Assembly (NCBI GenBank): GCA_016794525.1
Contig: JAEUJY010000067.1
Span: forward strand, 1-56,464
DNA length: 56,464 nucleotides
Source of the DNA: Myxococcales bacterium
Lineage (GTDB): Bacteria > Myxococcota_A > Polyangia > Haliangiales > Haliangiaceae
Reading direction: 5' to 3'
Part shown: piece by piece, positions 18,384-49,493 of the stretch
How the letters are laid out: each line of letters begins with the position of its first letter
Numbering within the stretch: position 1 is the first letter of the stretch
Position numbers and translations under genes: made by a program
Notes under the pieces: generated by a model
Told to the model about the DNA's origin: nothing
Seen by the model: the letters and a program-made list of their open reading frames with translations, nothing else
The model's database searches: none

Positions 18384-18455
18384 GGGCCCATAGCTCAGCG
18401 GTAGAGCAGCGGCCTTTTAAGCCGTTGGCCGAAGGTTCGAATCCTTCTGGGCTCA
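18384..18455 (+). tRNA. tRNA-Lys (anticodon TTT)
   Basis: The full cloverleaf can be folded by hand. Acceptor GGGCCCA pairs with TGGGCTC, the D stem is GCTC/GAGC, and the anticodon stem GCGGC/GCCGT carries loop CTTTTAA (anticodon TTT). The T arm is GAAGG-TTCGAAT-CCTTC and the discriminator is A. The 3' CCA is not encoded. Confidence 0.97.
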
Positions 18456-18474: not shown

Positions 18475-18833
<359 letters not shown>

Positions 18834-19646
18834 ATGGCAATGCGTACGCCCCGAACGAAGGCACCGTCTCGTACACCGCCGGCGGTGGCGGTCGAGTCGC
18901 CGCGGGTCACCGGCTGGCAGTGGGAGGCCACCACGCTGCCGTTGCCCGACGGTGAGCGCGACGGCATCGCCGAGGTAGTCTCCAAGGCCGTCGTCGAGAT
19001 GCACACCGAAGACGTCCACCTGGTCGAACTCGATGTGAGTGTCGGCGATGGCCCAGAGAGCATCGTCAAGGTCTCGAACCCCAGCGGTAGTGATTCGTTT
19101 GCGTTCGAGATTACCCGTAGCCGGATCGCCTATCGCCACGAGCCCGTCGACGGTGGCGATCGCGATCCGCGCGACCATATCGCTCGCGTCGCGTCCGGGC
19201 TCCTGCGCGCGGTCGGCAACCATCATCCGATCACGCGGCGCCTGCTTAGCGCTGGCAGTGCCTACGAGCTCAAATCGACGCTGGTCGGCCGCGATCATCC
19301 CAACCTCGAGCGAGTCACTCGCGAACTCGTCGCGCCCCTCGCGACTCGCCCGTGGGAAGCGGCGATGACGACGCGGCGCAAGAGCCTCGAGCGTGTCGAC
19401 CTCAAGTGGGCGGTCGACACGGAGGTCGCGAAGTTGCCGACCACGCTGTGGTTCAAGGTGGTCTGCCCCGCCAACAAGGACCACAGCATCGTCGAAACCA
19501 CGATCGTCGTGCAGTCCTCCATGACAGAGGAGCGAGGAAGCGGACTCCCGAGTCCCAATTGGGCGCTGTCGGCGGTGAAGATCCACGACGGCGTTTGGCC
19601 AACGGTCACGGCGTTCTTGACGTGGTTGCTCCGCACGAGGAGGTAG
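18834..19646 (+). CDS. Island protein A, unknown function
   Basis: I do not recognise this 270-residue protein. The N-terminal 25 residues are basic and Pro-rich (MAMRTPRTKAPSRTPP). The rest alternates beta-like stretches (HLVELDVSVGDG, SIVKVSNPSGSDSFAFEI, TLWFKVVCPANKDHSIVETTIVVQSS) with helices and ends in VWPTVTAFLTWLLRTRR. There is no signal peptide or membrane segment. The ATG at 18834 is preferred over the in-frame ATG at 18762 because TACGAT stands 7 nt before it. A very loose likeness to TIGR04255-type proteins was considered and not adopted. It ends 6 nt before the ATPase gene, so the two share an operon. Confidence 0.65.
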   Translation: MAMRTPRTKAPSRTPPAVAVESPRVTGWQWEATTLPLPDGERDGIAEVVSKAVVEMHTEDVHLVELDVSVGDGPESIVKVSNPSGSDSFAFEITRSRIAYRHEPVDGGDRDPRDHIARVASGLLRAVGNHHPITRRLLSAGSAYELKSTLVGRDHPNLERVTRELVAPLATRPWEAAMTTRRKSLERVDLKWAVDTEVAKLPTTLWFKVVCPANKDHSIVETTIVVQSSMTEERGSGLPSPNWALSAVKIHDGVWPTVTAFLTWLLRTRR

Positions 19647-19652
19647 TCGACG

Positions 19653-20762
19653 ATGAAGGTCTACGAACTCGCCCGCCAGTTGAAGATGCCGTCGACCGCG
19701 CTGGTGCCGTATCTTGTGTCGGCAGGGGTGAAGAAGACTCATCACCTGACGCCACTAACCGCTGATCAGATCGCCAAGGTGCGCGCGGCGGTGGTGAGGG
19801 ATCGATCGCGGCTCGCGACTGCGTCGACCGCCCCGGCGGCGCTCTCGGTCAAGCCCGCGCCACCGCTCCTTGCCTTCGGGTCGCTAAAAGGCGGTGTCGG
19901 CAAGACAACGACGTCGTTGTGCGCGGCCGAGCTGCTGCGAACCGTCGCGCCGAGGTGGCCGGTCGTGGTGGTCGACGCCGATGTCGCCGGCACCGAGTTG
20001 GACTGGGTGTGGAACGAGAGCAGTCACTCAACACGAGGTCGGGCCACGTATCAGGTGAGTGGATCGCTTGTGGAGCTTCTCGAAGAGCGACCGGATAGCC
20101 ATCGCGACGGTCCCTTGGATGCACTTAAGAGCATTGCGACGGACCTGGCGAACGACAAGGATCCGGAGCGTCGCGGGCTGGTGGTGCCGACGTTCGCGCA
20201 AGGCACGGAGGGCACCATCGAGGCTCTGGAGTGGAAGCGAGTCCTCGAGACCTCGAGCGCCTACGTAAGGCGCAACCTCGCTCGGGTGCTGCGCGCGCTG
20301 CGTGAGTGTCAGGTTGCCATCGTAGTCGATCTCCCAGCCTTCGACGTCGGGTTCGCCCACTTCGCTCGACAAGCTGTGGAGGACGCGAAAGGCACGTTCT
20401 ATTGGGTGACCGACTGTGACATCCGAACACTGCGGGCCACCATCAGCTACCTGGGAGTCCATGCCGCTACGTTGGGTGACGATCGTTGGCAACACGTGGT
20501 CGTGAACGGCGTCGATGACGCCCGCGAACCATCTTCGTTTTGGCGCATGGTCTCTCGAGCCACGAACCTGAGGATCCCGCCGACACCCAGTAAGCCGCAG
20601 GCGGGGCCAGTGCTGGTCGCGCGCGCTGACTCGATTCGCAACGCGACCAACGCCGACCGTGACAACGAAGACACCGAGCTCTTCAACGCCATCGAGGCGC
20701 TCATCAAGGGGGCGTCCTTATCAAGAGATGCCCCACGACGCCTGCGCGGGGAGGAGCCCTAG
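19653..20762 (+). CDS. Island protein B: ParA/MinD-type ATPase with IF2-N-like N-terminus
   Basis: The product has 369 residues. Residues 1-45 (MKVYELARQLKMPSTALVPYL...) look like the small helical IF2 N-terminal domain that sits at the front of translation factor IF-2. Residues about 72-300 are a deviant-Walker-A P-loop ATPase: FGSLKGGVGKTTTS with signature Lys79, switch region VVVVDADVAG around 104-113, and Walker B IVVDLPAF with Asp226. Such ATPases dimerise on ATP and position or switch partners. The start ATG has a strong Shine-Dalgarno (GAGGAGG, 9 nt spacing). It follows gene A by 6 nt and precedes gene C by 1 nt, so all three should be made together. It is not next to a parB gene, so ordinary partitioning is unlikely. 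Confidence 0.8.
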   Translation: MKVYELARQLKMPSTALVPYLVSAGVKKTHHLTPLTADQIAKVRAAVVRDRSRLATASTAPAALSVKPAPPLLAFGSLKGGVGKTTTSLCAAELLRTVAPRWPVVVVDADVAGTELDWVWNESSHSTRGRATYQVSGSLVELLEERPDSHRDGPLDALKSIATDLANDKDPERRGLVVPTFAQGTEGTIEALEWKRVLETSSAYVRRNLARVLRALRECQVAIVVDLPAFDVGFAHFARQAVEDAKGTFYWVTDCDIRTLRATISYLGVHAATLGDDRWQHVVVNGVDDAREPSSFWRMVSRATNLRIPPTPSKPQAGPVLVARADSIRNATNADRDNEDTELFNAIEALIKGASLSRDAPRRLRGEEP

Positions 20763-20763
20763 G

Positions 20764-22071
20764 ATGGCGGTCCAGTTCGATCGAGACACCCTGGTGGCCT
20801 TCGCGTCCCCGAGTCCCACGGTGGGCGCGATCCCGCTCCGCCTTCGCACGCTGCTAGAAGAAGGTCTGGCTGGCGTTAGCCCGCAGGATCCGATCGTCCG
20901 CCATCGCATCGCGGTACAGCGCGCTCGGCTCGACGCCGTTGAGGCGCGATTCGTCGGTCGCGTCGGTCAGCACCGTGTCTTGCGCTACACCGGCCGACCA
21001 CGCAGCGACATTCACCGAGTGTTGGCCAACTATGGCAAGCGCCTTCCATTGGAGTGGCAGCGCTGGCTGTGGTGGACGCACTGGTGCTACGAGCAAGCGA
21101 TCCCGGTCGACCTGCCGCTCCTCTTGGATTCGATCGAGGCGCTCATCGCGGTGGAGGCCCAACTCCAGGTCGACGGCAACCATCCCAACCGCGACCACAT
21201 CGTTCATCAACTGGCCGACGCTGAGGTTGCGGTCAACCTGCACCATATCGCCACCCCGGGGTACGACGATGGCGATTGGGACTATCTGAGAGCAAGTGTT
21301 GGCCTGCTGCCGAGCGACCGACAGCCGGTGACTCGGGCCGGCTTGTGCCTGGCGGGGATGTTCCACGATCTTGGATATCTTCGTTACGTAGGAGCGTCGG
21401 CGCGACAGGCGCTCGCGACCAACTTCGGGATCGCCGCACCGGTGCCATCGTTCGAGCTGTGGTCGGTGATGGAGTCGTTCGCCGGCAGCTATCTCGACCG
21501 GATCTTGAGCCACGGCGGCCACAGCGACGGATTGGTGGCCGATGTATTTCGGTTTGGGTGGGACAACGCTTGGCACGGACCGTTGTCGGCGTTGGTCTTG
21601 ATGGGTGCGGCGCGGCGCGTGGAACTCGAGGGACGCGCCTCGCCGCGAATGTCGGGCGCGCTCCAGGTCGCGGCGGCCGCGGCGTTCCTTCACGAGTTGC
21701 ATCCCGGGAAGCCCGACGACGTGATCGCGCCCGTCGCCATTCGCGAAGCACGTCGCCGGATCCGCGATTTCGCGTGGCCGGCCCTGTTTCGTATTGTCGA
21801 TGAACTGCAGTGCTGGTGCCGGCCGAAGTTGGTGCCGGACACGGCCGGTGAGGTCATCGATCCCACCTATCCGATGCGCTCAACTCTGCACTTCGGGGCC
21901 CGCGGAGCCAGCATCGCTGGTACCACCATGACGATTCAGGTGCAGCAGAAGGGCGACGCGAAGGGGGAGGTCGGAGTCTTGCGCTTCTTGTGCGGCGATG
22001 CCCAGGATCCCGGATCGGCGCACGCGATGTTCAAGGCGCTCGGCGTCACGAACATCAACGAAACGACGTGA
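20764..22071 (+). CDS. Island protein C: probable HD-type phosphohydrolase, divergent
   Basis: The product has 435 residues. A spread of metal-ligand-like motifs suggests an HD-superfamily fold: RDHIVHQL (His145/148), GMFHDLGY (His201-Asp202), LSHGGHSDGL (His250/253) and NAWHGPLSAL (His271), with Asp residues further on. This order resembles HD-CE-type domains more than classical HD-GYP; it is an inference by eye. The N-terminal 130 residues and the beta-rich C-terminus (STLHFGARGASIAGTTMTIQVQQK) are unassigned. The ATG at 20764 has a good GGAGG Shine-Dalgarno 9 nt upstream that lies inside the end of gene B. It converges on gene D with 12 bp between. Confidence 0.6.
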   Translation: MAVQFDRDTLVAFASPSPTVGAIPLRLRTLLEEGLAGVSPQDPIVRHRIAVQRARLDAVEARFVGRVGQHRVLRYTGRPRSDIHRVLANYGKRLPLEWQRWLWWTHWCYEQAIPVDLPLLLDSIEALIAVEAQLQVDGNHPNRDHIVHQLADAEVAVNLHHIATPGYDDGDWDYLRASVGLLPSDRQPVTRAGLCLAGMFHDLGYLRYVGASARQALATNFGIAAPVPSFELWSVMESFAGSYLDRILSHGGHSDGLVADVFRFGWDNAWHGPLSALVLMGAARRVELEGRASPRMSGALQVAAAAAFLHELHPGKPDDVIAPVAIREARRRIRDFAWPALFRIVDELQCWCRPKLVPDTAGEVIDPTYPMRSTLHFGARGASIAGTTMTIQVQQKGDAKGEVGVLRFLCGDAQDPGSAHAMFKALGVTNINETT

Positions 22072-22083
22072 CACCCGCGCCGC

Positions 22084-22821
22084 TTACCAGTAGCGCGCGA
22101 AGTATCGGGCCGCTGCCGGGTCGTTGGAGAGCAGGTCACGGTGTTCGCGAACGATCACCGCCGTGAGAGCCTGCGCCTCTGGCATCAGGGTCTCGGCCGC
22201 AAGGAGTGCCTTGATGAGTTGGCGACGCAGCGACGCTGCCGCCGGGACCTGAGGTCTCTCGTCATCGAATGCTACCGCCAGGGCGAGGCTCTGACCGAAC
22301 CGCTGCACCAACCATCGCCGCTCCTCCGGAGCGCTGTTGGCCACAACCAGGGGGAGCGCCATCGCGATCGCCACCGCGACGAGCGTGTTGTCCGACTCGA
22401 GCGCGGTTCGCCAGGTCGCGCCGAGACGACGGACGTCGCTGTCAGCCATCGCATGAGCCAGCATGACCAGATCGTCGAGCCCGAGGCCGTGCCTGGGGTT
22501 GTTGGCGGCACGTTCGAGCATCGCGGCCATGGCGACGCGCTGCCGCGCGTCGTTCAGATCCGGCATGCGAAGGCCGCTGCTCGACGAGTCGGGCGGGCTT
22601 TGAAGCCTACTCGGCAGCCGCCCCCGGTCGCGCGACTCCGATGGCGGTCGAGTCGAGCGCCCGGGCATCGACGCGACACGCGTGCCGGTTGCGAGCGCCT
22701 TCGCCATCGAGGCCAACGATTCGCCGATCCGAGCCCCGGGCTCGTCAGGCATCGTCATTGGCAATGGCTCGCCGGCCAGCAACCGCTCCAGGTTGCTTCG
22801 CGCTTGCTTACCCAACCGCAT
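22084..22821 (-). CDS. Island protein D, unknown, mostly helical
   Basis: I do not recognise this 245-residue protein. Residues 1-85 are basic and then Ser/Pro-rich (probably disordered). Residues about 90-245 are regular Ala/Leu-rich helices (RQRVAMAAMLERAA, DDLVMLAHAMADSDVRRLGATWRTAL, LVAVAIAMALPLVVAN, RRQLIKALLAAETLM), a helical-repeat or bundle appearance. One segment is hydrophobic enough to be mistaken for a membrane helix. The ATG at 22821 is chosen because TACTAT lies 9 nt upstream and the protein pattern starts there. It is transcribed toward gene C. Confidence 0.55.
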   Translation of the reverse strand: MRLGKQARSNLERLLAGEPLPMTMPDEPGARIGESLASMAKALATGTRVASMPGRSTRPPSESRDRGRLPSRLQSPPDSSSSGLRMPDLNDARQRVAMAAMLERAANNPRHGLGLDDLVMLAHAMADSDVRRLGATWRTALESDNTLVAVAIAMALPLVVANSAPEERRWLVQRFGQSLALAVAFDDERPQVPAAASLRRQLIKALLAAETLMPEAQALTAVIVREHRDLLSNDPAAARYFARYW

Positions 22822-22830
22822 CGTCCGGCG

Positions 22831-22836
22831 ATAGTA
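22831..22836 (-). promoter_or_regulatory. Putative -10 box TACTAT for island gene D
   Basis: The minus-strand TACTAT lies 9 nt before the ATG at 22821. TTGCGG upstream could be a -35, but with a 19-nt spacer. Confidence 0.4.
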
Positions 22837-22911
22837 GCGCGCCCGGGAGGGCCAGCCGCAACATTCGCCATGATCTAGCTCACGAATTCTTGCTCGCGAA
22901 GAATCAGCCTG

Positions 22912-23217
22912 TTGAATGGCCGGGCCACAGACGAGCCGCTTGAAGCGCCCCCTGGCGTCCCGATCGACAACTCGCCCACCGAATGTGTGTTCCAGGCCGT
23001 CGCCAAGCTCCGCCTCAACGTGCTCTTCGCCGGCAGCATGGAGGGCGCGCACCGCGACGGCGTCCTCCTCGGCATCGTCGCGACCTGGAGCGCGATTGGC
23101 GTCGCCGTTCAGGCGTGCCTGACCTGGGCCTTCGAGCGCCTCGGCACCCGCCGCGACGTCTTCGCGTTGTCGGTCTAGCAGCTCACGCTCGCCGCCTTCA
23201 AGCGAACGCTGCGCTGA
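22912..23217 (+). pseudogene. IS66-family transposase remnant (C-terminal end)
   Basis: The frame GVPIDNSPTECVFQAV...LNVLFAGSMEGAHRDGVLL matches the C-terminal DDE end of IS66 TnpC (IDNN..E....LGRKNWLFAGS.EG). It continues to the family's usual tail (ACLTWAFERLG, then LTLAAFKRTLR). An in-frame TAG at 23176-23178 interrupts it before the natural TGA at 23215-23217. The conserved RKNW is eroded to RLNV, and everything upstream of the last 100 or so codons is missing. It is therefore a dead fragment marking past transposition at the right side of the island. No terminal inverted repeats were seen. Confidence 0.8.
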
Positions 23218-45880: not shown

Positions 45881-47560
45881 TCAGGGCGGTGGCGTCGGGC
45901 TCGGGCAGGCGTCGTGGTGGATCTGCACCGCGAACGCCGCGCCGTCGGTGAGCTGCGCGCGGGGGCGGGGAGCCACCAGCGCGGCGATCAGCGCGCGGGT
46001 CGGGTCGACCGCCGGGTGCGCTCGCCGGGCGTGAGCCGGGGCGGGCGGGGCCGTCGGTGCGGTGATGCACACTGCCAGATCGTCGACGCCGTCGGTCAGC
46101 TCGAGCAGCCGGACCAACTCGGGCAGCCAGCGGGCGCCGTCGCTGGCCGGCGCGGTGATCGCGGCGTCGGGGATGGCGCGACCGCGGACCGTGACCTCGG
46201 CGCGGAGCGCGGCCGACCAGTCGCGGGCGAGCAGTTGCTCGGCGGCGGCCCCGAGCGGCGCGCCGAGGTGCGTCACCTCGAGCAGCAGCGCCGCCGCTGG
46301 CGTGTGCGCGGGCACGACCCGGACCTGGACCAGCGCGCCGGCGGCGGGCGGCCACTGCGTGGCGGTGGTCTCGCGCAGCGCGGCGACGAACGGCTCGACC
46401 ACGGGCGCGGGCGTGGCCGGGGGCGTAGGCGGCGGCGTCGCCGGCGCCGCCGTCTGGAGCTGGGTCGCCATCGCGTCGAGGGTCGCGGCGTCGGGGACGG
46501 CGATCACGTCCACGACCGCCTCGTGGCCGCTGATCGCCGCGATCTTCGCGCGCAGCTCGGCGGTCAGCGTCCGGGCGTCATCGGCGTTGCCGATCAAGAA
46601 GATCCGCACCCGGACCACCCCGGCACGGACATCGAGCGACTGTCGGACGATCGGCCCGGGGATCGTGGCGAGCAGGTCCTCGACCTCGCCCCGGACCCGG
46701 ACCTGCCAGCTCACCTCCTCGAGCGCCCGGCTCAGCGGGACCAGGATGGCGCCGAGCAGCACCGCCGGGATCAGCAGTCGCAGCACGCCCAGGCGGCGGC
46801 CGACGATCCGGCGCGTCAGGCGCGCCGCGCGGTAGCTGACGCGGTGGTTGTCGGGCGTCGCCAGGACCGCGCCCTCGATCTCGCCCACCGGCACCTGGCC
46901 GAACCCGAGCAGCAGGATCGCGACCGTCGCGACCGCTGCGATGGCCGCGAAGTTCGCGGTGAACAGCAGCAGCCCGCCGCGCAAGATGTCCATCCGGTCG
47001 ACGCCGAGCCCGTACCCGGCGGTGCACAGCGGCGGCACCAGCGAGATGCCGATCGCCGTGCCGGCGGCCGCCGACATCATGTCGCGGTTCTGGCGGACCG
47101 TCGTGTAGACCGCGGCCAGCGCGCAGAAGACCGCGACGAACAGATCGAGGATCGTCGGGCTGGTCCGCGCCGCCAGCTCGCCGGTGATCTCGTGGAACGG
47201 TAGCATCCGCGTCATCACCGCGGCGCCGACCACGACCACGGCGACGCTGGCCGCGGTGCGGACGCCGGCGCGGATCGACAGCAGCAGCGAGCCGGTCGCG
47301 AGGCCGGCGCCGAGCTCGATGAGCGGTGCCATCAGCGGCGACACCAGCATCGCGCCGATCACGACGGCGGTGCTGTCCATCGCCAGCCCGAGCGTGGCGA
47401 TGCCCATCGCCAGCACCAGCTGCAGCCAGTAGCCGACCACGTCGGAGGTCGAGCGGCCCAGCATCGCCTCGATCAGGGCGCGCCGGTCGTCCGGGGTGAC
47501 GCCGATGAAGCGGGCCACGCGATCCTGGGCATGGCCGACGACCTCCATCGGCCGGCTCAT
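45881..47560 (-). CDS. DUF389 (TIGR00341) membrane protein
   Basis: The 559-residue product has a hydrophobic core (about residues 35-265) with the family blocks MGIATLGLAMDSTAVVIGAMLVSPLMAPLIELGAGLATG and GTAIGISLVPPLCTAGYGLG. It continues with a C-terminal soluble region bearing a Pro/Thr linker. Members are putative transporters or hydrophobic-domain proteins of unproven substrate. The start ATG at 47560 has no Shine-Dalgarno; its AT overlaps the TGA of a 22-codon leader ORF (ATGA), implying translation by coupling. The CPA1-type antiporter gene lies just upstream in the same direction. Confidence 0.85.
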   Translation of the reverse strand: MSRPMEVVGHAQDRVARFIGVTPDDRRALIEAMLGRSTSDVVGYWLQLVLAMGIATLGLAMDSTAVVIGAMLVSPLMAPLIELGAGLATGSLLLSIRAGVRTAASVAVVVVGAAVMTRMLPFHEITGELAARTSPTILDLFVAVFCALAAVYTTVRQNRDMMSAAAGTAIGISLVPPLCTAGYGLGVDRMDILRGGLLLFTANFAAIAAVATVAILLLGFGQVPVGEIEGAVLATPDNHRVSYRAARLTRRIVGRRLGVLRLLIPAVLLGAILVPLSRALEEVSWQVRVRGEVEDLLATIPGPIVRQSLDVRAGVVRVRIFLIGNADDARTLTAELRAKIAAISGHEAVVDVIAVPDAATLDAMATQLQTAAPATPPPTPPATPAPVVEPFVAALRETTATQWPPAAGALVQVRVVPAHTPAAALLLEVTHLGAPLGAAAEQLLARDWSAALRAEVTVRGRAIPDAAITAPASDGARWLPELVRLLELTDGVDDLAVCITAPTAPPAPAHARRAHPAVDPTRALIAALVAPRPRAQLTDGAAFAVQIHHDACPSPTPPP

Positions 47561-47625
47561 CGGGCGCAGCCCTGCGCGGCGCGGTGGAGCGGCGGGGCGA
47601 CGACGAGGGCGGGGCGCGCGGACAT
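47557..47625 (-). CDS. 22-residue leader ORF coupled to the DUF389 gene
   Basis: The ORF starts MSARPALVV and ends GCAR. TACGGT (47632-47637) stands 6 nt before its ATG, the same geometry as leaderless starts elsewhere. Its TGA overlaps the DUF389 ATG as ATGA, and DUF389 has no Shine-Dalgarno of its own, so ribosomes would have to arrive via this ORF. Sequence does not reveal a regulatory signal; it has a run of hydrophobic residues and one Cys. Confidence 0.5.
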   Translation of the reverse strand: MSARPALVVAPPLHRAAQGCAR

Positions 47626-47631
47626 CGCGCC

Positions 47632-47637
47632 ACCGTA
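47632..47637 (-). promoter_or_regulatory. Putative -10 box TACGGT of the leader ORF / DUF389 gene
   Basis: The minus-strand TACGGT lies in the 23-bp gap after the antiporter gene and is followed by 6 nt and the leader ATG. No good -35 was found. Confidence 0.45.
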
Positions 47638-47648
47638 GCATCCATGGA

Positions 47649-49493
47649 TCAGCCGGGCGGCTGCGCTTGCCAGCCGCGCGCCTGCAGCCACGCGGTCGCG
47701 GCCTCGCGGCGATCGCTGGCGACCCCGAACGCCAGCTCGTCGCCGAGCCGCGGCGTCGTCCGCGCCGTCACCGGCGTGACGTCGGCATCGCGGCGGAGCG
47801 CGATCGGCAGGACTTGATCGGCGTCGAGCTCGGCGAACGCGTGCGCGCCGTCGGGGCCGACGAAACGCCAGCGCTGTACCTCGACAGCGCCGCGTCGCGC
47901 GAGGTCGAGCCAGCGCAGCACGTTGGTCTCGGCGGTCGCCAGCACCGCGACGTCGTGGGCGTCGGCCATCGGGACGGTGACGCCGCGGTCGTGCCGCTCG
48001 AGCAGGATCGCCAGCTGCGGGCCGCGCAGCTCGTCGGCGATCAGCCGCGCGAACAGGAAGTTGACGTGCTCGTTCGGCGTCATCCCGAGGCACCACGCCG
48101 CACCGTCGATTCGCGCTTGCGCGAGGGTCTCGAGCGTCAGCCCGTCGCCGGCCACGACCTCGAAGCCGTCGGCGCGCGCTGCGGCGCACAGCTCGTCGCG
48201 GGCCTCGACCAGCACGACGCGCATGCCGAGACCGGTCAGCACCCGCGCCACCAGCACCGCGAGGGCGTTGGCGCCGAGGATCAGCGCGCCGCTGCGCGGC
48301 GGCAGCCGCACGCCGAGCCGATCGGCCACCACTCCCGCGGTGAGGCCCTGCAGCGTGACCGTGGTCGCGATGACCACGAACACGAGCGCGCGGAGCTGCG
48401 CGCCGCCGGCGTACCCGGCGTGGCCGAGTTCGGTGGCGAACAGCGACGCCACCGCCGCGGCGACGATGCCCCGCGGCGCGATCCACGCCAGGCACAGCTT
48501 CTCGGGGCGCGTCAACGCCGAGCCGCGCGTGCTGGCGAAGACCGTCGCCGGGCGCACCACCACGAGCAGCACCGCGACCACCGCCGCGCCGCGCCAGCCC
48601 AGCGCGGCGACGTCGCTCATGCGCACGTCGGCGACCAGCAAGACGAACAACGTCGCCACCAGCAGCTCGGTGAGCTGCTCCTTGAACTCGGCGATCTGGC
48701 TGAGGCGGCGCACCGGCAGGTTGCCGACCAGGAGGCCGGCGACGATCGCCGCGGTGAGGCCGCTCTCGCTCACCAGCGCGTCGCTGACGTGGAACGCCGC
48801 GACCGCGACCGCCAGCGCCAACACGTTCTCGAGGCCGTGGGGGACGAGCCGCCGGACGCGGAGCAACCCGACGAGCAGCAATCCGGCGGCGGCGCCGACC
48901 AGCGCGCCCACGCCGAACCGCAGCACGATCGCGACCGCTTCGCCGGCCGCGGCGCGGCTGCTGTCGGCGAGCACGACCTCGAGGGTGACCACCGCGATCG
49001 TGGCGCCGACGGCGTCGACGAAGATGCCCTCGGCGATCAGGATGTCGGCGAGGTGGGGCTGCAGGCGCAGCCGCCGCACCAGCGGGTTGACGACGGTCGG
49101 GCCGGTCACGATCACCAGCGTCCCGAACAGCGCGGCGAGGCGCCAATCCCACGGCATGATCAGCGCCGCCGCCGCGGTGGCCAGGCCGCCGGTGATCAGC
49201 GCGCCGAGCGTCACCAGCCGGCGGATCGACCGGGCGCGGCGCCGCAGGGCGTCGATCCGGACGTTGAGCGCGCCTTCGAACAGGATGATCGCGACGGCGA
49301 ACCCGACGAACGCCGGCAGCCCGGCGCCGAGCACCTGGGGCCGCACCAGGTCGACGCCGTCGGGCCCCAGCGCGACGCCGAGCACCAGCAGGATGACGAT
49401 CCCGGGCACCTGGGCGTGGCGCGCGACACCCTGCGCGGTCACGCCCGCCAGCATGGCGAGCGAGAGGGTGAGCGGCGCGTCGTCGAGCGTCAT
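47649..49493 (-). CDS. CPA1-type cation/proton antiporter with TrkA-N domain
   Basis: The 614-residue product has residues about 10-390 as 12 or so membrane helices of the NhaP/CPA family. They include IVTGPTVVNPLVRRLRL with the characteristic TGP, GIFVDAVGATIAVVTLEV with the ion-coupling Asp, and WIAPRGIVAAAVASLFA (the WxxxRG motif). Residues about 400-520 form a Rossmann TrkA-N-like domain (GALILGANALAVLVARVLTGLGMRVVLVEARDEL), which usually senses NAD(H) or nucleotides. Probably Na+/H+ or K+/H+ exchange for ion and pH homeostasis. A TACCCG lies 6 nt before the ATG, a weaker match to the leaderless pattern. Confidence 0.92.
   Translation of the reverse strand: MTLDDAPLTLSLAMLAGVTAQGVARHAQVPGIVILLVLGVALGPDGVDLVRPQVLGAGLPAFVGFAVAIILFEGALNVRIDALRRRARSIRRLVTLGALITGGLATAAAALIMPWDWRLAALFGTLVIVTGPTVVNPLVRRLRLQPHLADILIAEGIFVDAVGATIAVVTLEVVLADSSRAAAGEAVAIVLRFGVGALVGAAAGLLLVGLLRVRRLVPHGLENVLALAVAVAAFHVSDALVSESGLTAAIVAGLLVGNLPVRRLSQIAEFKEQLTELLVATLFVLLVADVRMSDVAALGWRGAAVVAVLLVVVRPATVFASTRGSALTRPEKLCLAWIAPRGIVAAAVASLFATELGHAGYAGGAQLRALVFVVIATTVTLQGLTAGVVADRLGVRLPPRSGALILGANALAVLVARVLTGLGMRVVLVEARDELCAAARADGFEVVAGDGLTLETLAQARIDGAAWCLGMTPNEHVNFLFARLIADELRGPQLAILLERHDRGVTVPMADAHDVAVLATAETNVLRWLDLARRGAVEVQRWRFVGPDGAHAFAELDADQVLPIALRRDADVTPVTARTTPRLGDELAFGVASDRREAATAWLQARGWQAQPPG

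Follow-up and report, generated by a model that had tools for sequence, protein, structure and literature searches.

The short open reading frame (ORF) in front of the DUF389 gene analyzed here raises the question of how this gene is expressed, and whether the ORF is a regulatory leader, a means of delivering ribosomes or an accident of sequence. The locus lies on the minus strand of a stretch of 56,464 nt (the window), and inspection of the sequence found all coordinates given in the first-pass annotation to be exact: a -10-like box TACGGT (47632-47637), a spacer of 6 nt, the leader ORF MSARPALVVAPPLHRAAQGCAR of 22 codons, which opens at ATG 47625 and ends in TGA (47557-47625), and an ATGA overlap (47557-47560), in which the leader stop at 47559-47557 is overlapped by the ATG at 47560-47558, the first ATG past the promoter that is in frame with the DUF389 ORF. 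The box is embedded in TGCTACGGT, an extended-(-10)-like context (TGn) without a -35 element, matches TATAAT at three of six positions and holds the only TA dinucleotide within the 100-nt gap between the genes; a sigma-70 consensus scan called no promoter, TACGGT failing that criterion. Upstream of the gap ends a cation/H+ antiporter gene (Na_H_Exchanger and TrkA_N; 47649-49493), identified by profile search (PF00999, E 7.3e-41; PF02254, E 4.6e-10), 88 nt before 47560.

DUF389 is a family of unknown function. The gene (45881-47560, 559 aa counted from 47560) had been named a DUF389 transporter gene, of which the family name was corroborated by a profile match to PF04087 (E 2.8e-26, 92.6 bits against a cut-off of 23.9), while TIGR00271 and TIGR00341 stayed below cut-off on the protein, and ‘transporter’ can be kept as an inferred function only. 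The reported lack of a strong Shine-Dalgarno (SD) sequence was confirmed, with duplex energies of -3.1 kcal/mol for the start at 47560 and -2.7 kcal/mol for 47548. The start at 47560 is itself doubtful and may not be the native one, because the GTG of the closest relative aligns without gaps with Met5 of the window protein at 47548; this N-terminal alignment makes Met5 the probable homologous start, and the gene caller also picked 47548.

Were DUF389 to start still farther upstream, at ATG 47641 behind the antiporter stop, it would be coupled to the antiporter and the leader frame would stay untranslated. The ORF is open from this codon (586 aa), which is situated 7 nt past the antiporter stop, yet we regard this start as highly improbable and rejected it on codon usage: the 27-residue, Arg/Pro-rich extension that it would add (47561-47641) appears strongly non-coding, with a codon score of -18.8 over 21 codons (47623-47561), a value as low as which was found over the first 22 codons in none of 210 leaderless genes, and no comparable extension is seen in the relative loci L002, L004 or L008.

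Whether the box is a promoter was approached through the genome from which the window derives. The sample consisted of 140 stretches of this genome, in which genes were called by codon usage; gene starts are those of the simple codon-score caller of this analysis and not of an annotation. In the first 438 kb, TANNNT stood exactly 6 nt before the start of 28 of 212 genes that are likely first in their transcription unit, as compared with 2 of 5784 internal in-frame ATG or GTG codons serving as control, and 6 nt was the commonest leaderless spacing of TANNNT in this genome. Across 1.47 Mb with 1014 genes, 268 TANNNT-N6-9-RTG sites were located around gene fronts, 252 of them in frame, against 30.4 sites (sd 5.7) in any frame in shuffles of the same stretches; across 2.62 Mb, 423 of 455 such sites at gene fronts read in frame with their gene. 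The in-frame sites amount to about a quarter of the gene number (423 against 1783 genes in the 140 stretches and the window). Judged by this signature, leaderless-type starts are a major and common mode in this organism, which agrees with Zheng et al., 2011 (PMC3160421), where leaderless genes averaged 15.8% in 8 of 33 delta-Proteobacteria genomes. The signature can also help to fix or correct start codons in this genome. With a score at the 41st percentile among 145 in-frame sites of spacing 6, the window site is typical of the leaderless class of the genome.

A typical appearance has to be weighed against coincidence. In a genome of 75% GC, TACGGT, its ATG and the ATGA might be accidental and DUF389 might start at 47548 by itself, from a transcript supplied by the antiporter (gap 88-100 nt) or by an unrecognised promoter. 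Same-strand gaps of 80-110 nt are not rare (61 of 650), and DUF389 overlaps the preceding gene, an antiporter when read by eye, in the relative loci L005, L006 and L034. We consider this account rather unlikely, since an accidental site is expected at only about 3% of genes (30 in shuffles per 1014) and since a promoter of this kind recurs in 12 of 29 relatives, the closest of which shares a block identical at 12 of 14 positions. The relatives were drawn from DUF389 homologues found in searches of 95 and 317 genomes; 29 relative loci were analyzed, L009, L010 and L011 (partial or weak matches) as well as matches listed without a locus being excluded. In those 12 loci a -10-like box precedes an in-frame DUF389 start by 5-10 nt; five of them have a strict TANNNT and seven satisfy the relaxed rule only (at least 4 of 6 matches to TATAAT), and each of nine other six-position spacing bins held such a box in 0-4 loci. 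In the closest relative (L002/L012; G009, a Myxococcales MAG), whose DUF389 protein is 61% identical, the sequence reads TGCTACCCTGGCGCCAAC-GTG where the window reads TGCTACGGTGGCGCG-ATG, and the 14-nt block TGCTACnnTGGCGC is common to both.

The neighbourhood of the gene also speaks for a promoter of its own. In L002/L012, inspection of the ORFs by eye showed no antiporter in front of DUF389, the preceding gene appearing to be divergent, and the antiporter homologues with 59-61% identity (G013, G001, G005) lie on other contigs than the DUF389 matches of those genomes, so that DUF389 would have its own promoter and is probably independent of the antiporter transcript; the same lack of linkage, in family genomes holding the closest homologues of the antiporter, stands against an accidental site fed by antiporter transcription. 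The leaderless promoter of DUF389 is probably real, and of the earlier claim of a leaderless leader ORF the promoter half is supported by the spacing, the genome-wide signature and the relatives, while the leader-ORF half is weak. As a separate observation, the gene before DUF389 resembles a cation/proton antiporter in L005, L006, L034 and L026 (C-terminal motifs, by eye), and in the first three of these it overlaps DUF389 by RTGA; such neighbours suggest that DUF389 and ion antiport are functionally connected.

The comparison of the gap in related genomes, proposed in the first-pass annotation as a check, turned out against the leader. Behind the promoter block of L002/L012 DUF389 itself begins directly and the leader ORF is absent; in the window, 77 nt separate the leaderless ATG 47625 from the homologous start at 47548. 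When the 150 nt upstream of DUF389 were examined, a single one of the 29 relatives (L030) had any leaderless-like ORF that is out of frame with the gene; there, TACCGT-6-GTG starts an ORF of 41 codons whose end forms GTGA with an in-frame DUF389 GTG. This look-alike was discarded as independent support, its sequence being unrelated and the arrangement not being seen in L032-L034, and was treated as chance. In 16 of the 29 relatives an open frame overlaps an RTGA at DUF389. The box, spacer, ORF and overlap had been described as a complete small expression unit; a complete, maintained unit was not supported, the arrangement being kept neither in L002/L012 nor across the 29 loci.

Within the genome, too, overlaps of this type are common. 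RTGA opens 187 of the 817 non-coupled genes in the sample of 1.47 Mb, and 104 of these 187 are overlapped by an ATG- or GTG-started ORF when no promoter is required; the ATGA overlap is not above chance, and at 75% GC an RTGA that overlaps an open frame carries little weight as evidence. Out-of-frame leaderless-like sites numbered 16 at 1014 genes, with about 20 expected (two thirds of the 30.4 in shuffles), and hence showed no excess over shuffles in the 1.47 Mb. Both the fit of these sites to shuffled sequence and the frequency of RTGA with an overlapping open frame are what an accidental leader would predict. In 2.62 Mb, 4 of 17 cases were RTGA-coupled against 3.4 expected (P 0.45); the inclusion of 1-nt stop-start overlaps raised the count to 7 of 17 (4.5 expected, P 0.11), and restriction to the predicted gene start left 5 of 17 (2.4 expected, P 0.07). 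Leaderless-like mini-ORFs of 5-11 codons were noted at L074 15235, L154 17130, L139 5033, L060 7040 and L133 439, all five ending in RTGA or in a 1-nt stop-start overlap exactly at the predicted gene start; as a class they did not reach significance (P 0.07). An origin of the 77-nt stretch as a dispersed repeat was rejected, since its own genome yielded nothing but short, partial matches rich in GC; a search for repeats found none.

The composition of the leader frame leaves room for a further origin, namely that the leader once was, or still is, the N-terminal extension of DUF389 and that a small frameshift has separated the two. The shift could be an assembly error or a genuine mutation, in which case restart at the ATGA would rescue the gene. 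The codon score of the leader frame is -0.04 as against -18.8 and -12.9 for the other two frames, which makes it the most coding-like of the three and is weakly informative: the density of this score is 0.233 for gene starts as compared with 0.109 for open non-coding frames of GC>=80% and 0.062 over all open non-coding frames, a ratio of about 2-4, and of about 2 for GC-rich frames. The start codons of the signature are moreover usually in frame with their gene (423 of 455), and in some relatives 14-23 codons lie between a leaderless start and the conserved QD. Nevertheless, we hold a frameshift to be distinctly unlikely: the closest relative is without such an extension, comparison by eye showed no likeness between the leader peptide and any extension, and the coding frame seldom switches without a stop (five places in 1.47 Mb), so that an error within a stretch of 70 nt is improbable beforehand. 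Those five places in the same genome (L075 13812 and 14130, L046 17716, L113 5926 and L074 6024) are candidate frameshifted genes or assembly indels.

The suggestion that the leader peptide could serve as a sensor found no backing. Reading of the peptide revealed no regulatory codon run, the RNA folded no better than its shuffles (z +0.99), and a terminator scan of 45.5-50 kb detected none in the gap, the only terminator-like site (46616-46601) being located inside DUF389. A search against Rfam returned no riboregulator; its single match was to a CRISPR repeat, below threshold and on the opposite strand. A sensor or attenuator was rejected, the fold, Rfam, terminator and repeat searches all having come back empty; with conservation likewise missing, nothing supports a sensor role.

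Our preferred reading, which we advance tentatively and with somewhat less than even confidence, is that DUF389 has its own leaderless-type promoter and that the 5'-AUG of this promoter opens here a lineage-specific mini-ORF serving ribosome delivery at most. In this genome, 77 nt intervene between the start codon that follows the promoter and the homologous start of DUF389. Transcription would begin at AUG 47625 and so place the 22-codon mini-ORF, out of frame with DUF389, at the head of the mRNA. Initiation by a 70S ribosome would take place at this 5'-terminal AUG, a position which leaderless-competent ribosomes are known to use (PMC9031893); after termination at UGA 47559-47557 the ribosome would begin anew, either at the overlapping AUG 47560 or 8 nt farther on, at 47548. 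Termination at the UGA followed by restart would be the evident route, because neither of the two DUF389 starts has a strong SD, and translation of DUF389 by termination-reinitiation is plausible. Overlapping starts without an SD are normal here, because 59 of 174 genes which overlap their upstream gene by 4 or 1 nt have neither an SD nor TANNNT. The mini-ORF would be lineage-specific, its peptide probably meaningless and its possible role ribosome delivery, not sensing; to judge from the comparisons, the leader ORF amounts to a by-product specific to this lineage or, at most, to a device for delivering ribosomes.

Several known systems invite comparison. In Shell et al., 2015 (PMC4633059), mycobacterial ‘coupled’ leaderless small ORFs are described, with RTGA over-represented (p < 0.0003) and coupling sometimes kept between species while the peptide is not; these cases are backed by mapping of transcription start sites, ribosome profiling and significant enrichment, and the idea of ribosome delivery is repeated in a 2025 review (PMC12548453). 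The window case resembles the mycobacterial ORFs of that account (PMC4633059) in that the TGA of a small ORF forms RTGA with the start of the next gene, and in the proposed ribosome delivery with a peptide sequence that is not conserved. It presents a small ORF below 50 aa ending in RTGA (22 codons, ATGA 47557-47560, with the homologous start at 47548), and an arrangement that is not kept in relatives. Unlike the mycobacterial cases so reported (PMC4633059), the window arrangement is known from sequence alone and accompanied by no significant enrichment in 2.62 Mb, and unlike some of them it is absent from the closest relative. With the leaderless genes predicted in Zheng et al., 2011 (PMC3160421), the window case shares a TANNNT situated some 12 nt ahead of the start codon; those genes have a leaderless start of their own, whereas in the window a mini-ORF lies between promoter and gene. 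To leader-peptide attenuation and uORF sensors, as discussed in Shell et al., 2015 (PMC4633059), the likeness consists in a short ORF before a gene, and the window case differs from them in having no codon run, competing structure, terminator or conservation.

The arrangement can be put forward as a candidate member of the class of coupled leaderless small ORFs described in mycobacteria. That this group of Myxococcota makes use of leaderless mini-ORFs, coupled by RTGA or by a 1-nt stop-start overlap, for ribosome delivery to genes lacking an SD, as mycobacteria do, appears unlikely to us; if it were so, DUF389 would be one case and the mini-ORFs in L074, L154, L139, L060 and L133 further candidates. 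Literature searches on leaderless genes found no paper on leaderless mini-ORFs in myxobacteria, Sorangium, Myxococcus or Myxococcota. If real, the arrangement would extend the start-stop-coupled leaderless mini-ORFs of mycobacteria to a distant phylum rich in leaderless genes.

Elsewhere in the window, a stretch of about 4.4 kb (18550-22980) differs by its lower GC content (64-68% against about 75%). It is situated directly behind two tandem tRNA genes (18384-18455 and 18475-18547), contains a ParA-like ATPase ORF (19653-20762) and an HD-motif-like ORF (20659-22071), both named by eye, and looks like a tRNA-adjacent acquired island.
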